64,000 nt of DNA. Origin: an uncultured Coriobacteriaceae bacterium. Its GTDB lineage: Bacteria > Actinomycetota > Coriobacteriia > Coriobacteriales > Atopobiaceae. Below the pieces are notes generated by a model. That model saw only the letters and a program-made list of their open reading frames with translations. It did not search any database and had not been told where the DNA came from. The stretch covers positions 1 to 64,000 of the forward strand of contig CADCPM010000096.1 in NCBI GenBank assembly GCA_902803315.1. Direction: 5' to 3'. Each line of letters starts with the position of its first letter. The first letter of the stretch is position 1. Positions 46,645 to 55,767 of this stretch are shown piece after piece. Position numbers and translations under genes: made by a program.

Positions 46645-46666
46645 TCGTTTTCTTCGTGATTACTAG

Positions 46667-46793
46667 GCTCCGAGAATGGCTGGACCTGCGAGAGGACGCT
46701 GGAAAGCCAACCGCGCGAGTTTCCGCGAAACGCGGACTGTTCGAGCGCGGTGCTTTCCACGCCTATCGCGGGTCCAGCCATTCTCGGAGCCAG
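46667..46793. repeat. Large nested palindrome between trpS and the EIIB-dehydroquinase gene
   Basis: The outer arms 46667-46692 and 46768-46793 (26 bases, 24 of them pairing or more) enclose a second stem (ggaaagc-ca-accgcgc with gcgcggtgctttcc). A terminal hairpin tccgcg-aaa-cgcgga sits at the tip. The 127-base unit can fold as one long, nearly continuous hairpin. It does not share the type A core. Confidence 0.8.
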
Positions 46794-46808: not shown

Positions 46809-47678
46809 TTACGCGAGGTGGCTTGCCAAGCTGCTGATGGCAATCCTATATCCCTCGCTGCCAAGGCCGCTTATAACGTTCAGGCACGCCTTACCAACCT
46901 CACCTGCCTGCTTGAGCTTGTGGCGATGCACGTCCACGGCGGGGACCAAAACGGCTTGTAGGGCCTCGCCAAGTGCCTTCGAATCCTCGTAGGCCCCTGG
47001 GTTTATTACGATGGCTTCAAATGTGTCGAGACAATCCTGAATCATGTCCACAAGATCGCCCTCATGGTTTGACTGGTAACAGGAGCATTGAGAGAAGCCC
47101 GCCTCTTCTGCGGCTTGCTTGCACAGTTCGAGTAGGCCTGGATATTCGTCTGCCTCGCTTGCCACCTTTGAGGGGTCGAGGCCAAGCAGGTTGATGTTTG
47201 GCCCGTTGATAACGGCGAGACGCTTAGGCAAGGAATCAATATCCGTTTGGCGCTTCTCGCGCTCGTCGAATATGCTTTGCAGCACGTCCATTTCGTTTTC
47301 GTCTATGAGCGGCTTGTTGCTGCGTGCGGCGGAGAGGTCGGCCGCGCGCTGCTTGCTGGTGCGAATCTGCACGCGCATGTTGGTGTCTTGGCGCGACATG
47401 GGGAAGAGATCCTCGACTCCTCCCGAGATTCCCGTGAGCTTTATGAACGAGTGGTAGATGCCTTCTATGACGCGCGGTCCAAAGACGACCTCGAGCCCAT
47501 TGCGGCCACGCGTAGCCGTACCAAGGACTCCTTGAATCTCGCCGAGCGACTCGTAGTCCACCGACTGAGGATCGTTGAGCGTGACGCGGAGGCGCGTCAT
47601 GCACACAGTGTTGGAAAGCACGTTTTCGTGCCCTCCAAGCGCCACGAACACCTCGCGAGCCACCTCGTCCTTGTTCAC
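46809..47678 (-). CDS. PTS EIIB domain fused to a divergent type II 3-dehydroquinase domain
   Basis: This is a 289-residue protein, GTG start with GAGGGTG. Residues 3-85 form a glucose-class PTS EIIB domain: VALGGHENVLSNTVCMTRLR with phosphorylatable Cys26, and VFGPRVIEGIYHSF. A linker of about 65 residues follows. Residues 153-289 have the type II dehydroquinase fold order: RLAVINGPNINLLG, YQSNHEGDLVDMIQ, AIVINPGAY, VPAVDVHRHK, ISGLGSEGYRIAI. The usual catalytic Arg and Tyr after NLLG, the His of THTS (here EDS) and the Arg pair after the VH motif are missing, so normal activity is doubtful. It lies at the end of the aromatic operon, 140 bases after aroEK, with its own -10 box. Confidence 0.78.
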   Translation of the reverse strand: MNKDEVAREVFVALGGHENVLSNTVCMTRLRVTLNDPQSVDYESLGEIQGVLGTATRGRNGLEVVFGPRVIEGIYHSFIKLTGISGGVEDLFPMSRQDTNMRVQIRTSKQRAADLSAARSNKPLIDENEMDVLQSIFDEREKRQTDIDSLPKRLAVINGPNINLLGLDPSKVASEADEYPGLLELCKQAAEEAGFSQCSCYQSNHEGDLVDMIQDCLDTFEAIVINPGAYEDSKALGEALQAVLVPAVDVHRHKLKQAGEVGKACLNVISGLGSEGYRIAISSLASHLA

Positions 47679-47727: not shown

Positions 47728-47733
47728 ATTATA
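47728..47733 (-). promoter_or_regulatory. Probable -10 box (TATAAT) for the EIIB-dehydroquinase gene
   Basis: On the minus strand TATAAT occurs in a strongly AT-rich patch about 50 bases before the GTG start. A good -35 is not seen (tcaaat-like). It suggests a promoter separate from the aromatic operon. Confidence 0.45.
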
Positions 47734-47818
47734 GGTTTTACGTGCACTTTATTTGACACGATTCCAGAGCGAGCGGTGAACGACTGCGTGCGAGCCGCGA
47801 ACGCGAGCAACCGCAACG

Positions 47819-49099
47819 CTAGAGTCCCAAGAGCCTGCGAACCTCCATTGCGTCTCCAGCGGCCGACCCCGTGCAAGTGAGGTTGAGGTCTGCCCATTGC
47901 CTATAGAGTCCCATGCGTTGTTGCGCGAGCGCTTGGACGCCCTTTGTCTTTGAGAGAGGCCTGCCTTCGGTAGCGAGCTCATCCAGCGGACGGTCCAAAA
48001 AAACGATGGTACCGTTTTGGTGCAGCAGGTCGTAGTTGCGCTTGCGCGTAACGACGCCACCACCACAGGCGATGACAAGACCCGAACGTGCCCCATAGGA
48101 GGCCACGGTTTGTGTCTCCAGCTCCCTAAACGCCTCCTCGCCTCTTTTCTCTATGCATTCGGCAGGTGTGAGACCGTGGTCCACCACAAACAGGTCGTCG
48201 AGGTCTACGAAGGGTCGATCCACCATGTGAGCGAGTCGACGCCCCGCGGCCGTCTTGCCACAGCCTGGCATGCCTATGAACACCACGTTTCGCGTGGAGC
48301 ATCGAATGTCGTCCTCGATTCTGGGGATGAGACTTTGATCGATATCCTTGCCCTGGAAGAGCTGGCTGGAATAGAACGCCTGTGAGACGAGCATGGCCAA
48401 ACCGGACTCAAAGGCGATTCCAAGGCGTTCGGCCGCAAGGCAGATTCCGGTACGTTCGGGGTTGTATACCACGTCCAGCACGCCTCTTAGATGCGAGAGC
48501 GCCTGGAGCTGGCCATCTGTGATCGGAGAGGCAGGACAATTGGGATACATTCCCACAGGAGTGGTGTTGACCACCAACATGGCATCCGTATGACGCTCGG
48601 CAATCGTTTCGTATGTCTCGTCACCAGCCCTCGAGATCACGACCGCCTTTGCGTGAACGTCATGAAGGCATGCCTGCACCGCTTGGCTGGCCCCGCCCGA
48701 TCCAAGCACGAGCACCTTGGCATCGCGGAAGGCCTTGCTTGCCGAGCATCCCAGCTCACGCTGCGCAAAGCGCTCGAGCATCCAGCCAAAGCCCAGGATA
48801 TCGGTATTGTCGGCAAGGATCGAACCGTCCTGCCTGCGAACCAGCGTGTTGGCAACTCCAAGTCTCTCCACCCTAGGCGTCCGCTCGTTTGCAAACAGTG
48901 CAGCCTCGCGCTTGTACGGTATCGTTACGTTGATGCCGCGCCAGTCACCGTTGCGTATGAAGTCTTCCACGTCCTCGGGTTCGCGCTCAAACAACGTATA
49001 GGGAGCGCTGCCCAACGTGGCGTGGATTCGGGGGGACCAGCTGTGACCAAGCGTGCGCCCGAGCAGGCCAAAGCTTGCGTCAGCGGATTGGGTATCCAT
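47819..49099 (-). CDS. aroE: Shikimate dehydrogenase / shikimate kinase fusion
   Basis: This is a 426-residue protein; the ATG at 49099 is preferred, with GGAGG seven bases upstream, and it shares bases with the pheA stop (TGATG). Residues 10-260 are AroE: GLLGRTLGHSWSPRIHATLG, GINVTIPYKREA (catalytic Lys), ADNTDILGFGWML (Asp), VLGSGGASQAV (NADP loop), NTTPVGMYPN. Residues 268-426 are AroK: VVFIGMPGCGKTAAGRRLA (Walker A), VDLDDLF, ACGGGVVTRKRNYDLL and DRPLDELATEGRPLS (lid Arg). It catalyses two successive steps of the shikimate pathway, dehydroshikimate to shikimate 3-phosphate. AroE-AroK fusions occur but are not the rule. Confidence 0.92.
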   Translation of the reverse strand: MDTQSADASFGLLGRTLGHSWSPRIHATLGSAPYTLFEREPEDVEDFIRNGDWRGINVTIPYKREAALFANERTPRVERLGVANTLVRRQDGSILADNTDILGFGWMLERFAQRELGCSASKAFRDAKVLVLGSGGASQAVQACLHDVHAKAVVISRAGDETYETIAERHTDAMLVVNTTPVGMYPNCPASPITDGQLQALSHLRGVLDVVYNPERTGICLAAERLGIAFESGLAMLVSQAFYSSQLFQGKDIDQSLIPRIEDDIRCSTRNVVFIGMPGCGKTAAGRRLAHMVDRPFVDLDDLFVVDHGLTPAECIEKRGEEAFRELETQTVASYGARSGLVIACGGGVVTRKRNYDLLHQNGTIVFLDRPLDELATEGRPLSKTKGVQALAQQRMGLYRQWADLNLTCTGSAAGDAMEVRRLLGL

Positions 49100-50244
49100 C
49101 ACATTACCTCCGTATAGGAGCCAAGGTACCTAAATTCCTCGCATACGTCTGCCAGCGAATTCATGAGCATGCCAAACTCCGGCGCCGCAGCGGGACACTC
49201 GATGTCGAAGTAGAACATAAACTCAAAGTCCCTGCCCGGGATGGGGCGGCTCTCGAGCTTGTTGAGGTTGATGTCGAGCGCGTAAAAGCGGGCGAGTACG
49301 TTGTACAGCGCGCCCGGTTCGTGATTGATGACCACCATCAGGGAGCTTCTCTCGGCGCCGGGGTAAACGACGAGGTCCTTTGCGATCAGCGCGAATCGGG
49401 TGTAGTTGTTCTGGTTGTCCTGTACCGCAGAGTCTGCCACGTCGAGCTCGTAGAGTTTTGCGCATGAGCGCGAGGCGAGCGCTGCGACGTCGTCTCTGTT
49501 GGACGCCGCGACCATCTCAGCCGCTTTGGCGGTATTCTCGCAAACGTGCACGCGACAATTGGGAATCTTCGCAATGTAGTCGGCGCATTGGTTTATGGCC
49601 TGCTGATGGCTATACACTATGCGCACGTCCTCCTTGTGCGTGCCAGGCTTTACCAGCAGGTTGTGGTCGATCTTGAGCCGGCAGCTGCGTACGATATAGA
49701 AGTCGTGGCGCATCATGAGGTCGTACACGTGGTTGACGGAGCCTGCCGTTGAGTTTTCGATGGGCAGTACGCCAAAGTCGGCAGAGCCCTGCTCAACGGC
49801 CTCGAACACAGCCTCGAACGTGCTGTGATAGGCAATCGATGGCCGTCGGATCATGCGGTCCGCGGCGATTTGCTGGTATGCGCCCTCAACACCCTGGCAC
49901 GCCACGCGCGCTCTTCGGGGAAATACCGCGGGTGCGTTCTTAATGGCTTGCTCGATGCGTGCGGCGGTGGGGCTTTGGCGATGGAGCGCCTTGTACTGAG
50001 CCTCGCGTGACGCCTCCATGAGCACGGATTGGATAACGGTGGCGTAGCTTGCGAGCTCCTCGGGCACGCGCTCACTTGCGGCGAGGATGTTGGCCCGCTC
50101 GCGCTCGCGGTCGTATATGGGCTTTCCGGTGGCGCGCTTGTATTCGGCTACGTCCGCGGAGGCTTCCATGCGTTCCATAAACAGCGCAGAGAAGTTCTTG
50201 TCGATGCGATCTATCTGTGCACGGATTTCGTTGAGGTCTCTCAT
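49099..50244 (-). CDS. pheA: Bifunctional chorismate mutase / prephenate dehydratase
   Basis: This is a 381-residue protein. Residues 1-85 are an AroQ-type chorismate mutase (LNEIRAQIDRIDKNFSALFM, KRATGKPIYDRERERANI). Residues 110-290 are prephenate dehydratase (ACQGVEGAYQQIAADRM, PIENSTAGSVNHVYDL, NQNNYTRFALI with the TRF motif). Residues 298-381 are an ACT domain (SSLMVVINHEPGALYNVLAR, NKLESRPIPGRDFEFMFYFD with ESRP) for phenylalanine feedback. It converts chorismate to phenylpyruvate. In the aromatic operon, 57 bases after aroC. Confidence 0.95.
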   Translation of the reverse strand: MRDLNEIRAQIDRIDKNFSALFMERMEASADVAEYKRATGKPIYDRERERANILAASERVPEELASYATVIQSVLMEASREAQYKALHRQSPTAARIEQAIKNAPAVFPRRARVACQGVEGAYQQIAADRMIRRPSIAYHSTFEAVFEAVEQGSADFGVLPIENSTAGSVNHVYDLMMRHDFYIVRSCRLKIDHNLLVKPGTHKEDVRIVYSHQQAINQCADYIAKIPNCRVHVCENTAKAAEMVAASNRDDVAALASRSCAKLYELDVADSAVQDNQNNYTRFALIAKDLVVYPGAERSSLMVVINHEPGALYNVLARFYALDINLNKLESRPIPGRDFEFMFYFDIECPAAAPEFGMLMNSLADVCEEFRYLGSYTEVM

Positions 50245-50301: not shown

Positions 50302-51435
50302 TCATCGGCTGCGAGCAGGTGGAAATGCGAGCCACAAGTCCAACAGCGCCAAGGCCATTGCAGCCTCAGCGATGGGGACCGCGCGTGCCGCAACGCACGG
50401 GTCGTGGCGGCCGCGCACCTGCAGTGTGGCGGGCTTCCCGCTCACAAGATCTACCGAATCCTGGGCAAGGCCAATGCTGGGGGTGGGCTTAACGGCCATG
50501 CGAAAGAGCACGGGCGCACCCGACGAGATGCCGCCAAGCGAACCGCCCGCGTTGTTCGTCCGCGGACAAGGCTTGTTGTTACGCAGCTCATAGGCATCGT
50601 TGTTCTGCGAGCCCCGCATTTGGGCAACTGCGAAGCCTGCCCCAAACTCGATGCCCTTGACGGCAGGTATGCCAAACACGATGCGTGCCACGCTTCCCTG
50701 GATGCCGTCGTAGCGAGGACCGCCCACTCCTGCGGGAAGGCCTGTGGCCACACACTCGACGGCACCTCCCACCGAATCCCGTCCCTGGCGAGCCTGCTCT
50801 ATGGCTTGCTTCATGCGATCGCCCGCCACGGGGTCTATGGTGGGAAACGCGCCCTTGTCTTGACCCGCGCGTAAGACGTCGATTTGGCGGTTGAGTGCCT
50901 GCTGTGACGCTTGGGTGTTTTCAAGTGCGCAGAATGGCTCGTCCGTGACGTGCTCCACCTGCGACACATGTGCCGCGATGCGCACGCCTCTTTGGCTTAG
51001 GACCTGCAACGCAATGCCGCCCGCCACGCATAGCGGTGCGGTAAGGCGTGCCGAGAAGTGCCCACCTCCGCGTATGTCGTGGACGTCTCTCCACTTTTCC
51101 CAAGCGGCGAAGTCGGCGTGTCCGGGTCGGGGGACACGTCGCATCTCGTCGTAGTCACCAGAGCGCACGTTGGTGTTCTGTATGATTGCCGCCAACGGCG
51201 TGCCGCAGGTTTGGCCACGTTCGTTGAGACCGCTTACGATGCTTGGCGCGTCCGCCTCCTTGCGCGGCGTCGACCAGGCATTGCGTCCGGGGGCGCGCCT
51301 GTCCATGAATCTCTGGAGCTCTTGGAGGTCCAGATGAAAGCCCGAGGGCAGTCCCTCAATTACACACCCGATGGCGGGGGAGTGCGACTGTCCGAAAATC
51401 TGAACGCGCAATGCGGTTCCAAACGTCGATGACAT
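50302..51435 (-). CDS. aroC: Chorismate synthase
   Basis: This is a 377-residue protein with GAAGGG before the ATG. FGTALRVQIFGQSHSPAIGC, RRAPGRNAWSTPRKEADAP, PRPGHADFAAWEKW, DIRGGGHFSARLTAPLCVAG and NNAGGSLGGISSGAPVLFRM are the conserved FMN- and EPSP-binding blocks. The GQSHS variant of the usual GESHG motif is, from memory, seen in chorismate synthases of some gut anaerobes. It makes chorismate from EPSP. Six bases separate it from aroA. Confidence 0.95.
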   Translation of the reverse strand: MSSTFGTALRVQIFGQSHSPAIGCVIEGLPSGFHLDLQELQRFMDRRAPGRNAWSTPRKEADAPSIVSGLNERGQTCGTPLAAIIQNTNVRSGDYDEMRRVPRPGHADFAAWEKWRDVHDIRGGGHFSARLTAPLCVAGGIALQVLSQRGVRIAAHVSQVEHVTDEPFCALENTQASQQALNRQIDVLRAGQDKGAFPTIDPVAGDRMKQAIEQARQGRDSVGGAVECVATGLPAGVGGPRYDGIQGSVARIVFGIPAVKGIEFGAGFAVAQMRGSQNNDAYELRNNKPCPRTNNAGGSLGGISSGAPVLFRMAVKPTPSIGLAQDSVDLVSGKPATLQVRGRHDPCVAARAVPIAEAAMALALLDLWLAFPPARSR

Positions 51436-51441
51436 GGCTTC

Positions 51442-52719
51442 TTACCCTTCGCTTTCGGAAGAGAGGCTGACTCTTCCCCCGAGGCTCGCATAGTCCTGCC
51501 AAAACGTGGGATAGGACTTGGCGACGCACTCGGCATCCGTGATGACAACGTCGCCTGTGGCATGGGTGGCCATCACGGCACCCATCATGGCGATGCGATG
51601 GTCGTTGCAGGCGTCTATGACGCCGCCACTCAGACATTCGACTCCTCGTATTACGAGGTCGTCCTCCATGATGCGGGCATGTCCGCCTAGGGCGTTGATG
51701 GCCGCGCTTACAGATGCGAGGCGATCGGATTCCTTGAGGCGCAGCCTGCTTGCATTGGTGAGCTTGCTGGTTCCTGGCGCGGTGGCGGCTATGGCGGCAA
51801 GGGGAGGAACGAGATCGGGTATGGCGCCAACGTCTATGCGTGCCGCACGCGGGTTGTCCAAGGTGGCGCGTACGGCATCCGTACGACGGGCGATGCGTGC
51901 GCCAAAGCCGGCGAGTGCAGCAAGGATGGCTCGGTCGCCCTGCGGGCTTGTGGGATCGAGCCCAAATACCGTGAGCCCCTCTTGCTCGAGCGTTCCTGCC
52001 GCCAGCCAAAAGGCCGCGTTGGACCAGTCGCCTTCCACAACGCACCTGATTGGGGCAACCAGTGTCTTGGGATCCACGAAGAATCGCTCGTAGGTAACGC
52101 CTTCGTATACTACGCTGCCACAAGACACGTCCTGTCCAAACAGCTCCAAGGCGCGTGTGGTTAGGGTTATGTAGGGCCTCGACTGCACGGGCGTGCTTAC
52201 CCAAATCTCCGAAGGCCTGCCAAGAACCGAGGTGGCGAGGAGCAGGCCGCTCACGTACTGCGAGGAGACGTCACCCGGCAACACGAACCGACCGGGCGTG
52301 AGCTTGCCGGTCGCGAGGATGGAATGCCCCTCCTTCCTAAGGGCTATGCCATGGTTGTAGAGCTCGCGGTCCAATGGCGCGAGCGGACGTTCCATGAGCC
52401 TTCCGTGGCACTCAAAGCGAGCGTGTATGCCCAGCGCACAGGCAACGGGAAGAAGAAACCTTAAGGTCGTGCCGGACTCACCGCAATCCAATACGCAGAA
52501 TTCGCCATCCTTGTGGCTTGGGTCTTGTGAGTGTCTAACGTCCTGTAAAGCCTGCAGGCAGCGGGCAGTGGCCTCGATGTCGAGCGAGGTCGTGTTGCAT
52601 ACGAACTCGCAGGGCTGGTCTGCCAGCATTGCCAGCACGAGCAGACGATGTGCCATGGACTTTGACGACACGGCCTCGACGGAGCCACGTAGCACGGAAG
52701 GGCGTATGCTCGCGTTCAT
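51442..52719 (-). CDS. aroA: 3-phosphoshikimate 1-carboxyvinyltransferase (EPSP synthase)
   Basis: This is a 425-residue protein; the ATG at 52719 overlaps the aroB stop (ATGA) and has GGAGG upstream, so it is preferred to the more upstream ATG. SVEAVSSKSMAHRLLVLAML (S3P-binding Lys-Ser), LDCGESGTTLRFLLPVACAL (the GxSGTT-like loop), GDVSSQYVSGLLLA, RLRLKESDRLASV and DHRIAMMGAVMA are standard. It condenses shikimate 3-phosphate with PEP. No glyphosate-resistance feature is asserted. Confidence 0.95.
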   Translation of the reverse strand: MNASIRPSVLRGSVEAVSSKSMAHRLLVLAMLADQPCEFVCNTTSLDIEATARCLQALQDVRHSQDPSHKDGEFCVLDCGESGTTLRFLLPVACALGIHARFECHGRLMERPLAPLDRELYNHGIALRKEGHSILATGKLTPGRFVLPGDVSSQYVSGLLLATSVLGRPSEIWVSTPVQSRPYITLTTRALELFGQDVSCGSVVYEGVTYERFFVDPKTLVAPIRCVVEGDWSNAAFWLAAGTLEQEGLTVFGLDPTSPQGDRAILAALAGFGARIARRTDAVRATLDNPRAARIDVGAIPDLVPPLAAIAATAPGTSKLTNASRLRLKESDRLASVSAAINALGGHARIMEDDLVIRGVECLSGGVIDACNDHRIAMMGAVMATHATGDVVITDAECVAKSYPTFWQDYASLGGRVSLSSESEG

Positions 52720-53825
52720 GACCGTGCCTCCGTGGTGCCGCATCCCAGGCGTACAACCTCTTCAAGCTCCTCGAGCGTTACGCTGCGCAAGGAAACCTTG
52801 CCGATGCGCTCGGGGACGACCAGGTTGACGGTAGCGCCATGACGCTTCTTGTCGTGGGTCGCGTAACGCATGATGGTCTGCGCCGGCAAGTCGGTGTCGA
52901 TGGGAAGGCCGTGGGCCTCGCAGGCTTGCTCGATAAGTCTCGCGCAGCCTTGTTGCGTCCATCCCAAGCGTTCGGCTCCGCGAGCCACGCAACAGAGCCC
53001 CGCGGCAACCGAGGACCCGTGGCCAAGTTGGTAGTCGCTTGCCGCTTCGATGGCGTGTCCCAAGGTATGCCCGAGGTTGAGCGTTTGTCTGAGTCCGCGT
53101 TCGTGCTCGTCGGCGTTCACGACGTCTCGCTTGATCCTTACGTTTTGGGCAACGATGCGCGCCATCTGCGTGTCGTCTGTGCTGGGATCATTTACGGGAT
53201 GCGCGACTATATGCTCAAAAAGTGCAGGGTCGGCCAGCGCGCCGTGCTTTACGATCTCACCGCATGAATCCGTAAGAAGTTCGTGGCTAAGGGTGTGCAG
53301 GCATTCTACGTCGGCCACTACCACGCGGGGATGCAGGAAGGCGCCGGCCAGGTTCTTCCCTGACCGCAGGTCCACGGCGGTCTTTCCGCCTACCGACGAG
53401 TCCACCATGGCCAAAAGCGACGTGGGAACCTGGGCCACCTTGATGCCGCGCAGGTAAAGGGATGCGGCAAGGCCAGCCATGTCGCCGCATACACCGCCTC
53501 CCAGTGCAACTACCACGTCGTCACGCGAGAGCTCGGCTTGCGCCAGCTCCTCGAGGATGCTCTCGAGCGTGGAGAATCGCTTGTTGCGCTCTCCCGCGGG
53601 GAAGGTAATGAGGCAGGTTCGGTAGCCTGCGCCTTCGAGCGAGGACATCACGCGCTCGGCATAGAGCGGGGCGACGTTTGAGTCGCTAATCACGGCGGCC
53701 ACCCTGCCTCCAGCGGCGTTGCGCACCAGTGGTCCCACATCGTCCAAGATGCCGCATCCGACGTGCACGTCGTAGTCGCTGGTAGGTGTGTGCACGCCTA
53801 CCACGTGCGCGCTTTGCTCACTCAT
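52716..53825 (-). CDS. aroB: 3-dehydroquinate synthase
   Basis: This is a 369-residue protein; the ATG overlaps the tyrA stop (ATGA) and GGAGG lies upstream. ALGGGVCGDMAGLAASLYLR, QVPTSLLAMVDSSVGGKTAV, GKNLAGAFLHP, SCGEIVKHG, DEHERGLRQTLNLGHTLGHA and LGHGSSVAAG are the NAD, zinc and substrate blocks, with the zinc ligands (Glu, His, His) present. It converts DAHP to 3-dehydroquinate. Confidence 0.95.
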   Translation of the reverse strand: MSEQSAHVVGVHTPTSDYDVHVGCGILDDVGPLVRNAAGGRVAAVISDSNVAPLYAERVMSSLEGAGYRTCLITFPAGERNKRFSTLESILEELAQAELSRDDVVVALGGGVCGDMAGLAASLYLRGIKVAQVPTSLLAMVDSSVGGKTAVDLRSGKNLAGAFLHPRVVVADVECLHTLSHELLTDSCGEIVKHGALADPALFEHIVAHPVNDPSTDDTQMARIVAQNVRIKRDVVNADEHERGLRQTLNLGHTLGHAIEAASDYQLGHGSSVAAGLCCVARGAERLGWTQQGCARLIEQACEAHGLPIDTDLPAQTIMRYATHDKKRHGATVNLVVPERIGKVSLRSVTLEELEEVVRLGCGTTEARS

Positions 53826-54739
53826 TGACCCTCGACCTCCTTCTTGCGCCGGTCTCCTTCTTCCAGCAGGCTCTTGAGTCGCTCGGCATCGTTGTTGTCG
53901 ATAGCGTCTTTGTACTGCTGGAGGTTGCGAATAAGAATGCCGATTTCCTCAGAGAGGTAGTCGCCATTTTCCAAAAAGAGCTCGGTCCACATTTGTGCGT
54001 TGAGGCGAGCCACGCGTGTGAGGTCACGGTAGCTCCCTGCCGAGAAGCCCTTGTGCACCTTTGCGGAAGGACTCTTTACATAGGCGTTGGACACCACATG
54101 GGCAAGCTGGGAGGTGAATGCGATCACCTCGTCGTGGTGTTCGGCCGTACTTAAGGTGTAGGAGCCAAATCCGCAGGGTTCGAGCAGTGTCTTAAGCCGT
54201 GCGAGGATGTCCACGCGCACGAAGTCGTCCATGTTTTCTGGAGGAACCACGACCATGGGCGCGCCATAGAACATGTTTGCGCGCGTGTATGCGAAACCCG
54301 AGTATTGCGTGCCGGCCATGGGGTGGCAGCCGATGAAGTGCCACTCGTAGTCTTGGGCGATGGCAAAGCAGTCGCGGCAGATGTTGCGCTTCACGCCAAC
54401 CACGTCGATGACGATCGCTCCCGGCGAGATCCTATCCCGCATCTTGCGAAGCCACTCCACCGATACCTGGGGGTAGCCTGCCAATATTATGAGTTCGCAG
54501 GTTGGAACGATGTCGTTGGTCAACTCGCCGTCCACGCATTCGGCCATGGCGAGCTCGACCGTCGAACGTGTGCGGTTCCAGGCAAACACCTCGCGTCCGC
54601 CCTCGTGCAGTCCTTTGGCGAAGGAGCCGCCGATGAGGCCCAGTCCTAGCACACCTACGCGGTTACGGACGAAGGTGGCATCTTCGGGAACGCTTGGCGT
54701 TACGTGCCCATTCATGCCATGCGTCGAATTCGCTGCCAT
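53822..54739 (-). CDS. tyrA: Prephenate/arogenate dehydrogenase
   Basis: This is a 305-residue protein; GAGGAA lies before the ATG, two bases after the DAHP-synthase-like gene. VGVLGLGLIGGSFAKGL is the NAD loop; ELIILAGYPQVSVEWL and IVIDVVGVKRNIC follow; FIGCHPMAGTQYSGFAYTRA contains the catalytic His; the helical C-terminal dimer domain completes the standard TyrA. No fused mutase or ACT domain. It makes 4-hydroxyphenylpyruvate or tyrosine; cofactor and substrate preference are not decided. Confidence 0.92.
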   Translation of the reverse strand: MAANSTHGMNGHVTPSVPEDATFVRNRVGVLGLGLIGGSFAKGLHEGGREVFAWNRTRSTVELAMAECVDGELTNDIVPTCELIILAGYPQVSVEWLRKMRDRISPGAIVIDVVGVKRNICRDCFAIAQDYEWHFIGCHPMAGTQYSGFAYTRANMFYGAPMVVVPPENMDDFVRVDILARLKTLLEPCGFGSYTLSTAEHHDEVIAFTSQLAHVVSNAYVKSPSAKVHKGFSAGSYRDLTRVARLNAQMWTELFLENGDYLSEEIGILIRNLQQYKDAIDNNDAERLKSLLEEGDRRKKEVEGQ

Positions 54740-54741
54740 GG

Positions 54742-55767
54742 CTATTCCTCACTTGTCTGTGTTGCCAGCGCTGAGCGTATGCCAAGCATGCCGCGCACCG
54801 TGGAGGAAAGCATATCTGTCGTAAGCGCCCGGTCGTCGTCCGAGAGGTCGTTGGGTTGTTCAGTGTGTACCTCCAGCTGAACGCCATCCGCACCTGCCGC
54901 CGTTGCCGAAAAGGCCAGTGGCGGTGCGTACCTCGCATAGTTCGCGGAGTGCGTGGGCTCTGCCAAGACGGGCAGATGCGAGAGGTACTTAAGGATAGGA
55001 ATGGCGTTCACGTCAAAGGTTCGCTGGGTGCGCGTCTCGAAAGTTCGAATCCCACTCTCACAGAGCATAACGTTGGGATTGCCCTCGCTCATTACGTATT
55101 CCGCTGCCATAAGCAGGTCGTCTATGGTGCCTGCGGGCCCTCGCTTGAGTAGCACAGGCGTGGTGGTCTTTCCTACCTCGCGCAAGAGACAGGGGTTCTG
55201 TGCGTTCCGCGCGCCAACCTGTATGACATCGATGCCCTTCTGAACGAACAGGGGAACGTCGCGCGTGTCGAGTACCTCCGCGATTACGGGCAGGTCGAGT
55301 TCATTTCCCACCTCGGCAAGCAAGTCGAGACCCTTATCGCCCATGCCCTGATAGGAATACGGGGAAGTGCGGGGGACATAGGCACGACCGCGCAGCATCG
55401 TGGCGCCAGCCTCTTTGGCTCGTACGCATGCCTCCAAGAGCGTGGTGTCCTCCATGGTGTCCATGCTGGCAACGACCGTAAGACTTCCGTCTCCCACAAG
55501 CACGTCGTGGCCGCAATCGACCACGGTGTCGTTGGGATGGAAGGATCGACTCGCCTTTTTGAACGGTTCCGAGACGCGCTGGACGCTGCGAATGATGCTC
55601 ATGGATTCGAGGAGGAAGGGGTCCATCTGAGAGGTGTCGCCAATGATGCCCACGATCGTCTCGTTGTCGCCGCGACTTACATGGGTTTTGAATCCCTGCC
55701 CGTGTATCCACTGTAATAGGTGGCCAAGCTGCTCCTCTGTGGCCGATTGCCTTACCACGGCTATCAT
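54742..55767 (-). CDS. aroF: DAHP synthase-family protein (class I, AroF/B. subtilis AroA type) with altered active site
   Basis: This is a 341-residue protein; AAGGAGGTAG lies before the ATG. Residues 1-75 resemble the N-terminal ferredoxin-like regulatory domain; residues 95-335 form the barrel: RGRAYVPRTSPYSYQGMGDK, DVIQVGARNAQN, PVLLKRGPAGTI, MLCESGIRTFETRTQ, LAEPTHSANYARY and GADGVQLEVH. Compared with the family consensus, the metal-ligand Cys of the GPC motif is gone (ASMD at 100-103), the PEP-binding Lys of KPRTSP is Val131, and DPSH is EPTH. His273, Glu299 and Asp310 remain. As the first gene of the aromatic operon it should make DAHP from PEP and erythrose 4-phosphate, but the changes make that uncertain. 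Confidence 0.82.
   Translation of the reverse strand: MIAVVRQSATEEQLGHLLQWIHGQGFKTHVSRGDNETIVGIIGDTSQMDPFLLESMSIIRSVQRVSEPFKKASRSFHPNDTVVDCGHDVLVGDGSLTVVASMDTMEDTTLLEACVRAKEAGATMLRGRAYVPRTSPYSYQGMGDKGLDLLAEVGNELDLPVIAEVLDTRDVPLFVQKGIDVIQVGARNAQNPCLLREVGKTTTPVLLKRGPAGTIDDLLMAAEYVMSEGNPNVMLCESGIRTFETRTQRTFDVNAIPILKYLSHLPVLAEPTHSANYARYAPPLAFSATAAGADGVQLEVHTEQPNDLSDDDRALTTDMLSSTVRGMLGIRSALATQTSEE

Follow-up and report, generated by a model that had tools for sequence, protein, structure and literature searches.

The described family closest to the protein reported here is AroQ, the type II dehydroquinase (PF01220): the fold family is common to both by profile, intact orthologues in the Atopobiaceae have all the catalytic residues, and the locus is the position at which sister families carry aroQ. 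Unlike AroQ, the protein has an N-terminal EIIB domain of the PTS, and in the genus studied here the essential residues have been lost. A dead dehydroquinase offset by an enzyme of the other type is already known from Candida albicans, in which the dehydroquinase domain fused within Aro1 is dead and Dqd1 supplies the activity (PMC9074039); there, however, the type I enzyme died and type II took over, the reverse of what is found here, and the partners kept in Aro1 are further pathway enzymes, whereas here it is a PTS domain. EIIB domains are also known as regulatory inputs, examples being Bacillus MtlR and E. coli EIICB-Glc with Mlc: besides moving sugar, or in place of it, such a domain has its phosphorylation state read by a partner (PMC3217849, PMC10305011), as may happen in our protein. 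In contrast to MtlR-type regulators, this protein has no DNA-binding or PRD domain and joins EIIB to a biosynthetic shikimate-pathway enzyme. A third known kind is the TpiA-EIIB fusion model NF011497, which likewise combines a metabolic enzyme with a Glc-family EIIB and whose EIIB region matches our protein at 25 bits, although there the enzyme is glycolytic (triosephosphate isomerase) and the EIIB is C-terminal; we found no functional study of that fusion. We are not aware of any case in which the PTS controls aromatic synthesis directly. An earlier sequence-only reading of the locus knew of no described EIIB-dehydroquinase fusion, and our search of the open-access literature likewise found no published description of one or of an EIIB-only descendant.

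The fusion gene lies on the minus strand at positions 46809–47678 of the window, the whole 64,000-nucleotide stretch of Atopobiaceae DNA that was analysed, and encodes 289 amino acids from a GTG start; orthologues occur in nearly all Atopobiaceae genomes searched. Residues 1–85 (47424–47678, minus) are a glucose/sucrose-type EIIB domain, with a PTS_EIIB (PF00367) match over residues 9–41 (E 2.6e-11; 43.2 bits, curated cut-off 27) and sucrose and beta-glucoside EIIBC as the best NCBIfam families. Cys26, the expected phosphorylation site (47601–47603, minus), stands in the sequence CMTRLR, so the EIIB active-site motif C-x-T-R-L-R is intact; its C, T, R, L and R are invariant in 95 of 95 proteins. 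Two elements of the linker (residues 86–152; 47223–47423, minus) are conserved in the family alignment: an [LMF]xVxI stretch and an acidic motif of the LxxLF type, here ENEMDVLQSIF (residues 127–137; 47268–47300, minus), the pattern of which is present in 91% of linkers compared to 12% of composition-matched shuffled linkers. Residues 153–289 (46812–47222, minus) form a type II dehydroquinase-like domain that is catalytically degenerate by residue comparison, with a DHquinase_II (PF01220) match over residues 154–284 (E 4.9e-26; 91.5 bits, curated cut-off 23.3). Both halves of the architecture proposed from the sequence alone, an EIIB domain with Cys26 and a type II dehydroquinase fold, are thus recovered above their cut-offs. 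Against the AroQ equivalog TIGR01088 (NCBIfam) the protein reaches 89.9 bits, about half of the cut-off of 169.85 and therefore below it, as is expected for a degenerate member. There is no EIIC domain within the protein and none beside the gene, whose annotated neighbours are aro genes and trpS.

Residues of the dehydroquinase half are numbered here after M. tuberculosis DHQ2, for which the essential residues are described (PMC6011038). Arg19 and Tyr24 are absent from the lid, which reads GLDPSKVAS; His81 is absent, EDS replacing THTS; Arg108 and Arg112 have gone through an eight-residue deletion; the Ser103 position is His and the Asp88' position Glu. Asn12, Asn75 and His101 are kept as N161, N226 and H251. 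The lid, the EDS substitution, the missing Arg pair and the retained His of the VH motif had all been read correctly from the sequence. An AlphaFold model of the protein and one relative has a pLDDT of 41. Cys186 and Cys200 of this domain, near the QSNHEG segment, are almost invariant in intact and dead family members alike, and Cys198, also near that segment, is common among fusion proteins across the family.

By domain annotation the immediate upstream neighbour is an aroE-aroK fusion (shikimate dehydrogenase-shikimate kinase, aroEK; 47819–49102), followed by pheA (chorismate mutase-prephenate dehydratase; 49099–50244), aroC (chorismate synthase; 50302–51435), aroA (EPSP synthase; 51442–52743), aroB (dehydroquinate synthase; 52716–53825), tyrA (prephenate dehydrogenase; 53822–54739) and aroF (DAHP synthase with a ferredoxin-like regulatory domain; 54742–55767), all on the minus strand. 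In the window, 140 nt separate aroEK from the fusion (median 172 nt over 92 genomes), and a TATAAT box lies 49 nt before the fusion start codon (47728–47733, minus). This box is exact at 35–55 nt in 13 of the 16 genomes of the window's genus (g1), and exact TATAAT upstream of the fusion occurs in 15 of 96 genomes in the family set against 2.4 expected in shuffles, while a strict two-hexamer sigma-70 scan returned no full site. The fusion gene is likely to have its own promoter in the window's genus and, given the gap and the promoter-like box, it may not be co-transcribed with aroEK and could form a separate transcript. Its assignment to the end of the aromatic operon holds for its place beside aroEK, but may not extend to transcription. 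A CACGT(A/C)GA-like box directly precedes TATAAT in most genomes of the genus (about 47734–47750 in the window), and an operator could sit in that spacer. The trpS and fusion genes are convergent, and between them lies a 30-nt inverted repeat (46666–46695 and 46762–46791; 93% complementary, arms 66 nt apart), possibly a two-way terminator, the 18-nt core of which has no other copy in the genome.

The Atopobiaceae are a family of gut and mouth bacteria. Matches to the window protein were found in 139 of 140 genomes of this family, most of them probably MAGs or drafts, the weakest matches covering EIIB only; PF01220 is present in 127 of the 140, in single copy each apart from one split match. 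We extracted 95 orthologues with flanking DNA for comparison. Across the family the fusion adjoins aroEK where the aro genes end; the local order is rarely rearranged, and in one genome (G033) the gene lies on the opposite strand. In lineages without the type I enzyme AroD, N12, R19, Y24, N75, H81, H101, R108 and R112 are intact in 69 of 69 proteins, while Asp88' was scored only as one column over 72 proteins (D in 59, E in 10). The culturable type strains Olsenella uli DSM 7084 (G036) and Atopobium parvulum DSM 20469 (G023) very likely carry the intact fusion. The missing residues are thus a trait of the window's genus and not of the fusion itself, and canonical residues in most of the Atopobiaceae rule out an intrinsically dead enzyme.

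A search for the fusion elsewhere in the Coriobacteriia, proposed with the original observation, found it near-universal in Atopobiaceae and full-length nowhere else in the class: a profile of the intact fusion, run against 398 class-level and 396 phylum-level genomes, gave full-length matches in this family alone. In sister families of the order, a plain aroQ lacking EIIB ends the same operon (G258, G281, G347, G320, G318 and G275). Because plain aroQ occupies the same place in these families and full-length fusions occur only in Atopobiaceae, the simplest account is that EIIB was grafted once, onto a pre-existing aroQ, at the root of the family. Two genomes that seemed to be missing the fusion (G053 and G011) do so only apparently, as the contig ends inside the aro operon; four others (G008, G009, G010 and G030) have neither a dehydroquinase nor chorismate synthase and are uninformative. 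In G037 the EIIB and dehydroquinase parts lie in two separate frames (L164, 6331–7290); a frameshift or a misassembly could account for this, or the gene may truly be split. Its EIIB part contains an undetermined residue.

The aromatic operon had been described as otherwise lacking a dehydroquinase, which is true of the neighbouring aro genes but not of the genome. In the window's own assembly (G000; 2.95 Mb, 87% complete) the fusion is the single PF01220 match, and a canonical type I dehydroquinase, AroD (PF01487), is encoded on contig C12 (1.0e-61, 209 bits), which disposes of a genome without any dehydroquinase. This AroD carries the Glu of VEWRAD, the His of SNHDF, the Lys of PKLAVM, the Arg of MAMGAHGKLSR and the Gln of SAPGQ, which we take to be the landmark residues of type I enzymes, so the shikimate pathway can run without the chemistry of the fusion. 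A second dehydroquinase elsewhere in fusion-bearing genomes, for which a search had been suggested, proved to be restricted: type I AroD is present in 24 of 140 family genomes and in two of 35 genera, the window's genus (15 of 16 genomes) and a sister genus, g35 (9 of 18), and is absent from the other 33 by profile search of the 140 genomes.

Decay of the enzyme half follows this distribution. PF01220 scores are at least 166 bits in nearly all AroD-free genomes and 69–104 bits in the window's genus; in the AroD-bearing genomes of the sister genus they are 120–175 bits in five, and four have no match (G122, G131, G135 and G137). In all 24 AroD genomes catalytic positions are changed or the dehydroquinase domain is lost, the mildest case being G126, where NGPN to NGPS is the sole clear change. 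An altered enzyme half is found in all 16 members of the window's genus and in part of the sister genus, and in no other genus. AroD went undetected in two altered genomes, G071 (77% complete) and G139 (73% complete), both deep inside AroD-bearing clades, which we put down to missing contigs. A tree of neighbouring aro proteins requires three changes in AroD, three in catalytic alteration and two for loss of the dehydroquinase domain that leaves EIIB only; AroD gain or loss and catalytic alteration are concordant in three of three independent pairs, too few for significance (sign test, p 0.25). It is well supported that AroD later replaced AroQ as the enzyme and that EIIB and the linker were retained each time.

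The window's dehydroquinase domain is probably inactive. It is very improbable that dehydroquinase activity persists through a rearrangement of residues: the PF01220 match remains, at 91.5 bits, and the Tyr is not universal among active type II enzymes, Bacillus having Phe (PMC4314829), but Arg19, Tyr24, His81, Arg108 and Arg112 have been lost together, these positions vary freely within the genus, and a canonical AroD is present. Decay has also been local. Compared with near intact relatives, segment identity within the window's genus is 0.15 versus 0.71 for the lid, 0.25 versus 0.79 for the catalytic loop and 0.53 versus 0.95 for the THTS segment, whereas the alpha1-beta2-QSNHEG-alpha2 segment stands at 0.67 in both. 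This equality, together with a dN/dS of about 0.06–0.11 for the dehydroquinase half, means that the first half of the fold is still constrained in the genus. Such constraint could reflect a new ligand or activity of the degenerate fold, which might for example sense an intermediate of the shikimate pathway and signal through EIIB. In favour are Asn12, Asn75 and the NGPN and QSNHEG segments, which are invariant or almost so in the genus and constrained at a level near that of intact relatives. We regard that reading as quite unlikely, given that the lid is drifting, His101 is kept in only 5 of the 16 members, other substrate-binding residues vary, and other lineages have dropped the domain altogether.

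The fate of EIIB is different. Five genomes of the sister genus (G122, G131, G135, G137 and G139) have at the same locus an EIIB-only gene of 145–162 amino acids, comprising EIIB and the linker; its C-terminus falls at or close to the acidic L-x-x-L(L/F) motif of the linker. The EIIB dN/dS of 0.024–0.037 (G131 versus G135 and G139) shows strong purifying selection, and in the window's genus EIIB has about 0.04–0.06; these are Nei-Gojobori estimates from a few close pairs. Mean pairwise identity in that genus is 0.69 for EIIB and 0.53 for the dehydroquinase half, against 0.46 and 0.67 in other genera, such that the dehydroquinase half is the better conserved in 1% of pairs within the genus versus 99% elsewhere. 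In intact fusions EIIB is therefore the faster-evolving half and under moderate constraint. If EIIB had regulated the fused dehydroquinase alone, the whole gene in the window's genus would be a disappearing relic, an idea with which the clear relaxation of the dehydroquinase half in both genera and its outright deletion in five genomes agree. Yet close pairs that have lost the enzyme still show an EIIB dN/dS of 0.02–0.06, the EIIB frame is unbroken throughout the enzyme-loss lineages of both genera, the dead half is itself constrained and the promoter-like box is conserved across the window's genus, all of which make the relic reading improbable.

Since EIIB is kept where the dehydroquinase half is dead or has been deleted, these patterns suggest that it is a regulator in its own right, and the evolutionary history of graft, enzyme replacement and EIIB retention is well supported. 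The proposal that the fusion is a PTS-phosphorylated sensor or regulator of aromatic synthesis is strengthened, because constraint on EIIB and the linker persists in full after enzyme decay and whole-domain deletion. The fusion is not inherently inactive, however, and the organism does have a dehydroquinase. A soluble transport EIIB, serving a sugar EIIC without its own EIIB, is also conceivable, in which case the aro location would be accidental and the dead dehydroquinase a mere carrier. The invariant C-x-T-R-L-R motif and the nearest families, sucrose and beta-glucoside EIIBC, would suit such a role; we consider it unlikely, because these genomes encode many other EIIB-bearing proteins, the gene adjoins aroEK with no EIIC gene adjacent among those annotated, and the EIIB was originally fused to an anabolic enzyme.

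We favour, with a modest degree of confidence, the reading that EIIB is a regulatory module linked to aromatic synthesis and phosphorylated by the PTS, that the gene descends from a working EIIB-AroQ fusion, and that the dead fold is kept as a scaffold. The working fusion would have arisen once, when the aroQ at the end of the aro operon gained EIIB and the linker. An AroD encoded elsewhere would then have taken over the dehydratase step in the window's genus, after which the dehydroquinase half would have lost its lid, catalytic loops and presumably activity, keeping the beta1-alpha1-beta2-QSNHEG half of the fold, perhaps as an oligomeric scaffold; the retention and scaffold role are suggested by conservation. 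At high PEP and scarce PTS sugar, EIIA~P would phosphorylate Cys26, and the phosphorylation state would alter binding of EIIB and the acidic linker motif to a partner in aromatic synthesis, for which DAHP synthase and AroEK are the likely candidates. Phosphorylation, the partner and the direction of the effect are what we infer from comparative evidence. PTS partners are widespread in the family, the EI N-domain being found in 126 of 140 genomes and a Glc-type EIIA in 134 of 140; the window's own MAG has an EIIA and no detected EI, which we attribute to incompleteness, most of its genus having EI. In B. subtilis, EIIA-Glc donates phosphate to EIIB domains that have no cognate EIIA of their own (PMC3217849).

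EIIB and the linker have survived repeatedly without leaving the aro locus, and the most economical explanation for their outliving the enzyme is a module that reads the PEP and sugar state and in turn acts on a pathway consuming PEP. PEP is used by the PTS and also at two steps of the shikimate pathway. The broader proposal, to which we give slightly less than even chances, is that a dedicated EIIB-linker module gives direct PTS control of aromatic synthesis, having been recruited onto a dehydroquinase in the Atopobiaceae ancestor and since become independent of that enzyme; one genus would retain it in fusion with a pseudoenzyme, the sister genus as a stand-alone EIIB regulator. The natural series of intact fusion, dead fusion and EIIB alone offers a setting in which the regulatory part can be told apart from the enzyme part, and is an example of an enzyme being outlived by the domain fused to it.

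The type I enzymes of the two genera occur in some further arrangements. In three genomes of the sister genus (G131, G132 and G135) the type I dehydroquinase lies within a frame of about 577 amino acids, and in G131 (L185, 2678–4405) it is fused to shikimate dehydrogenase (PF01487 and PF08501), though aroEK is also present; plants also have a dehydroquinase-shikimate dehydrogenase fusion. Near aroD in the window's genome there is a 737-amino acid protein (L181, 12950–15160); it has ROK-like as well as lactose-type PTS_IIB matches and may be a further EIIB-containing regulator.
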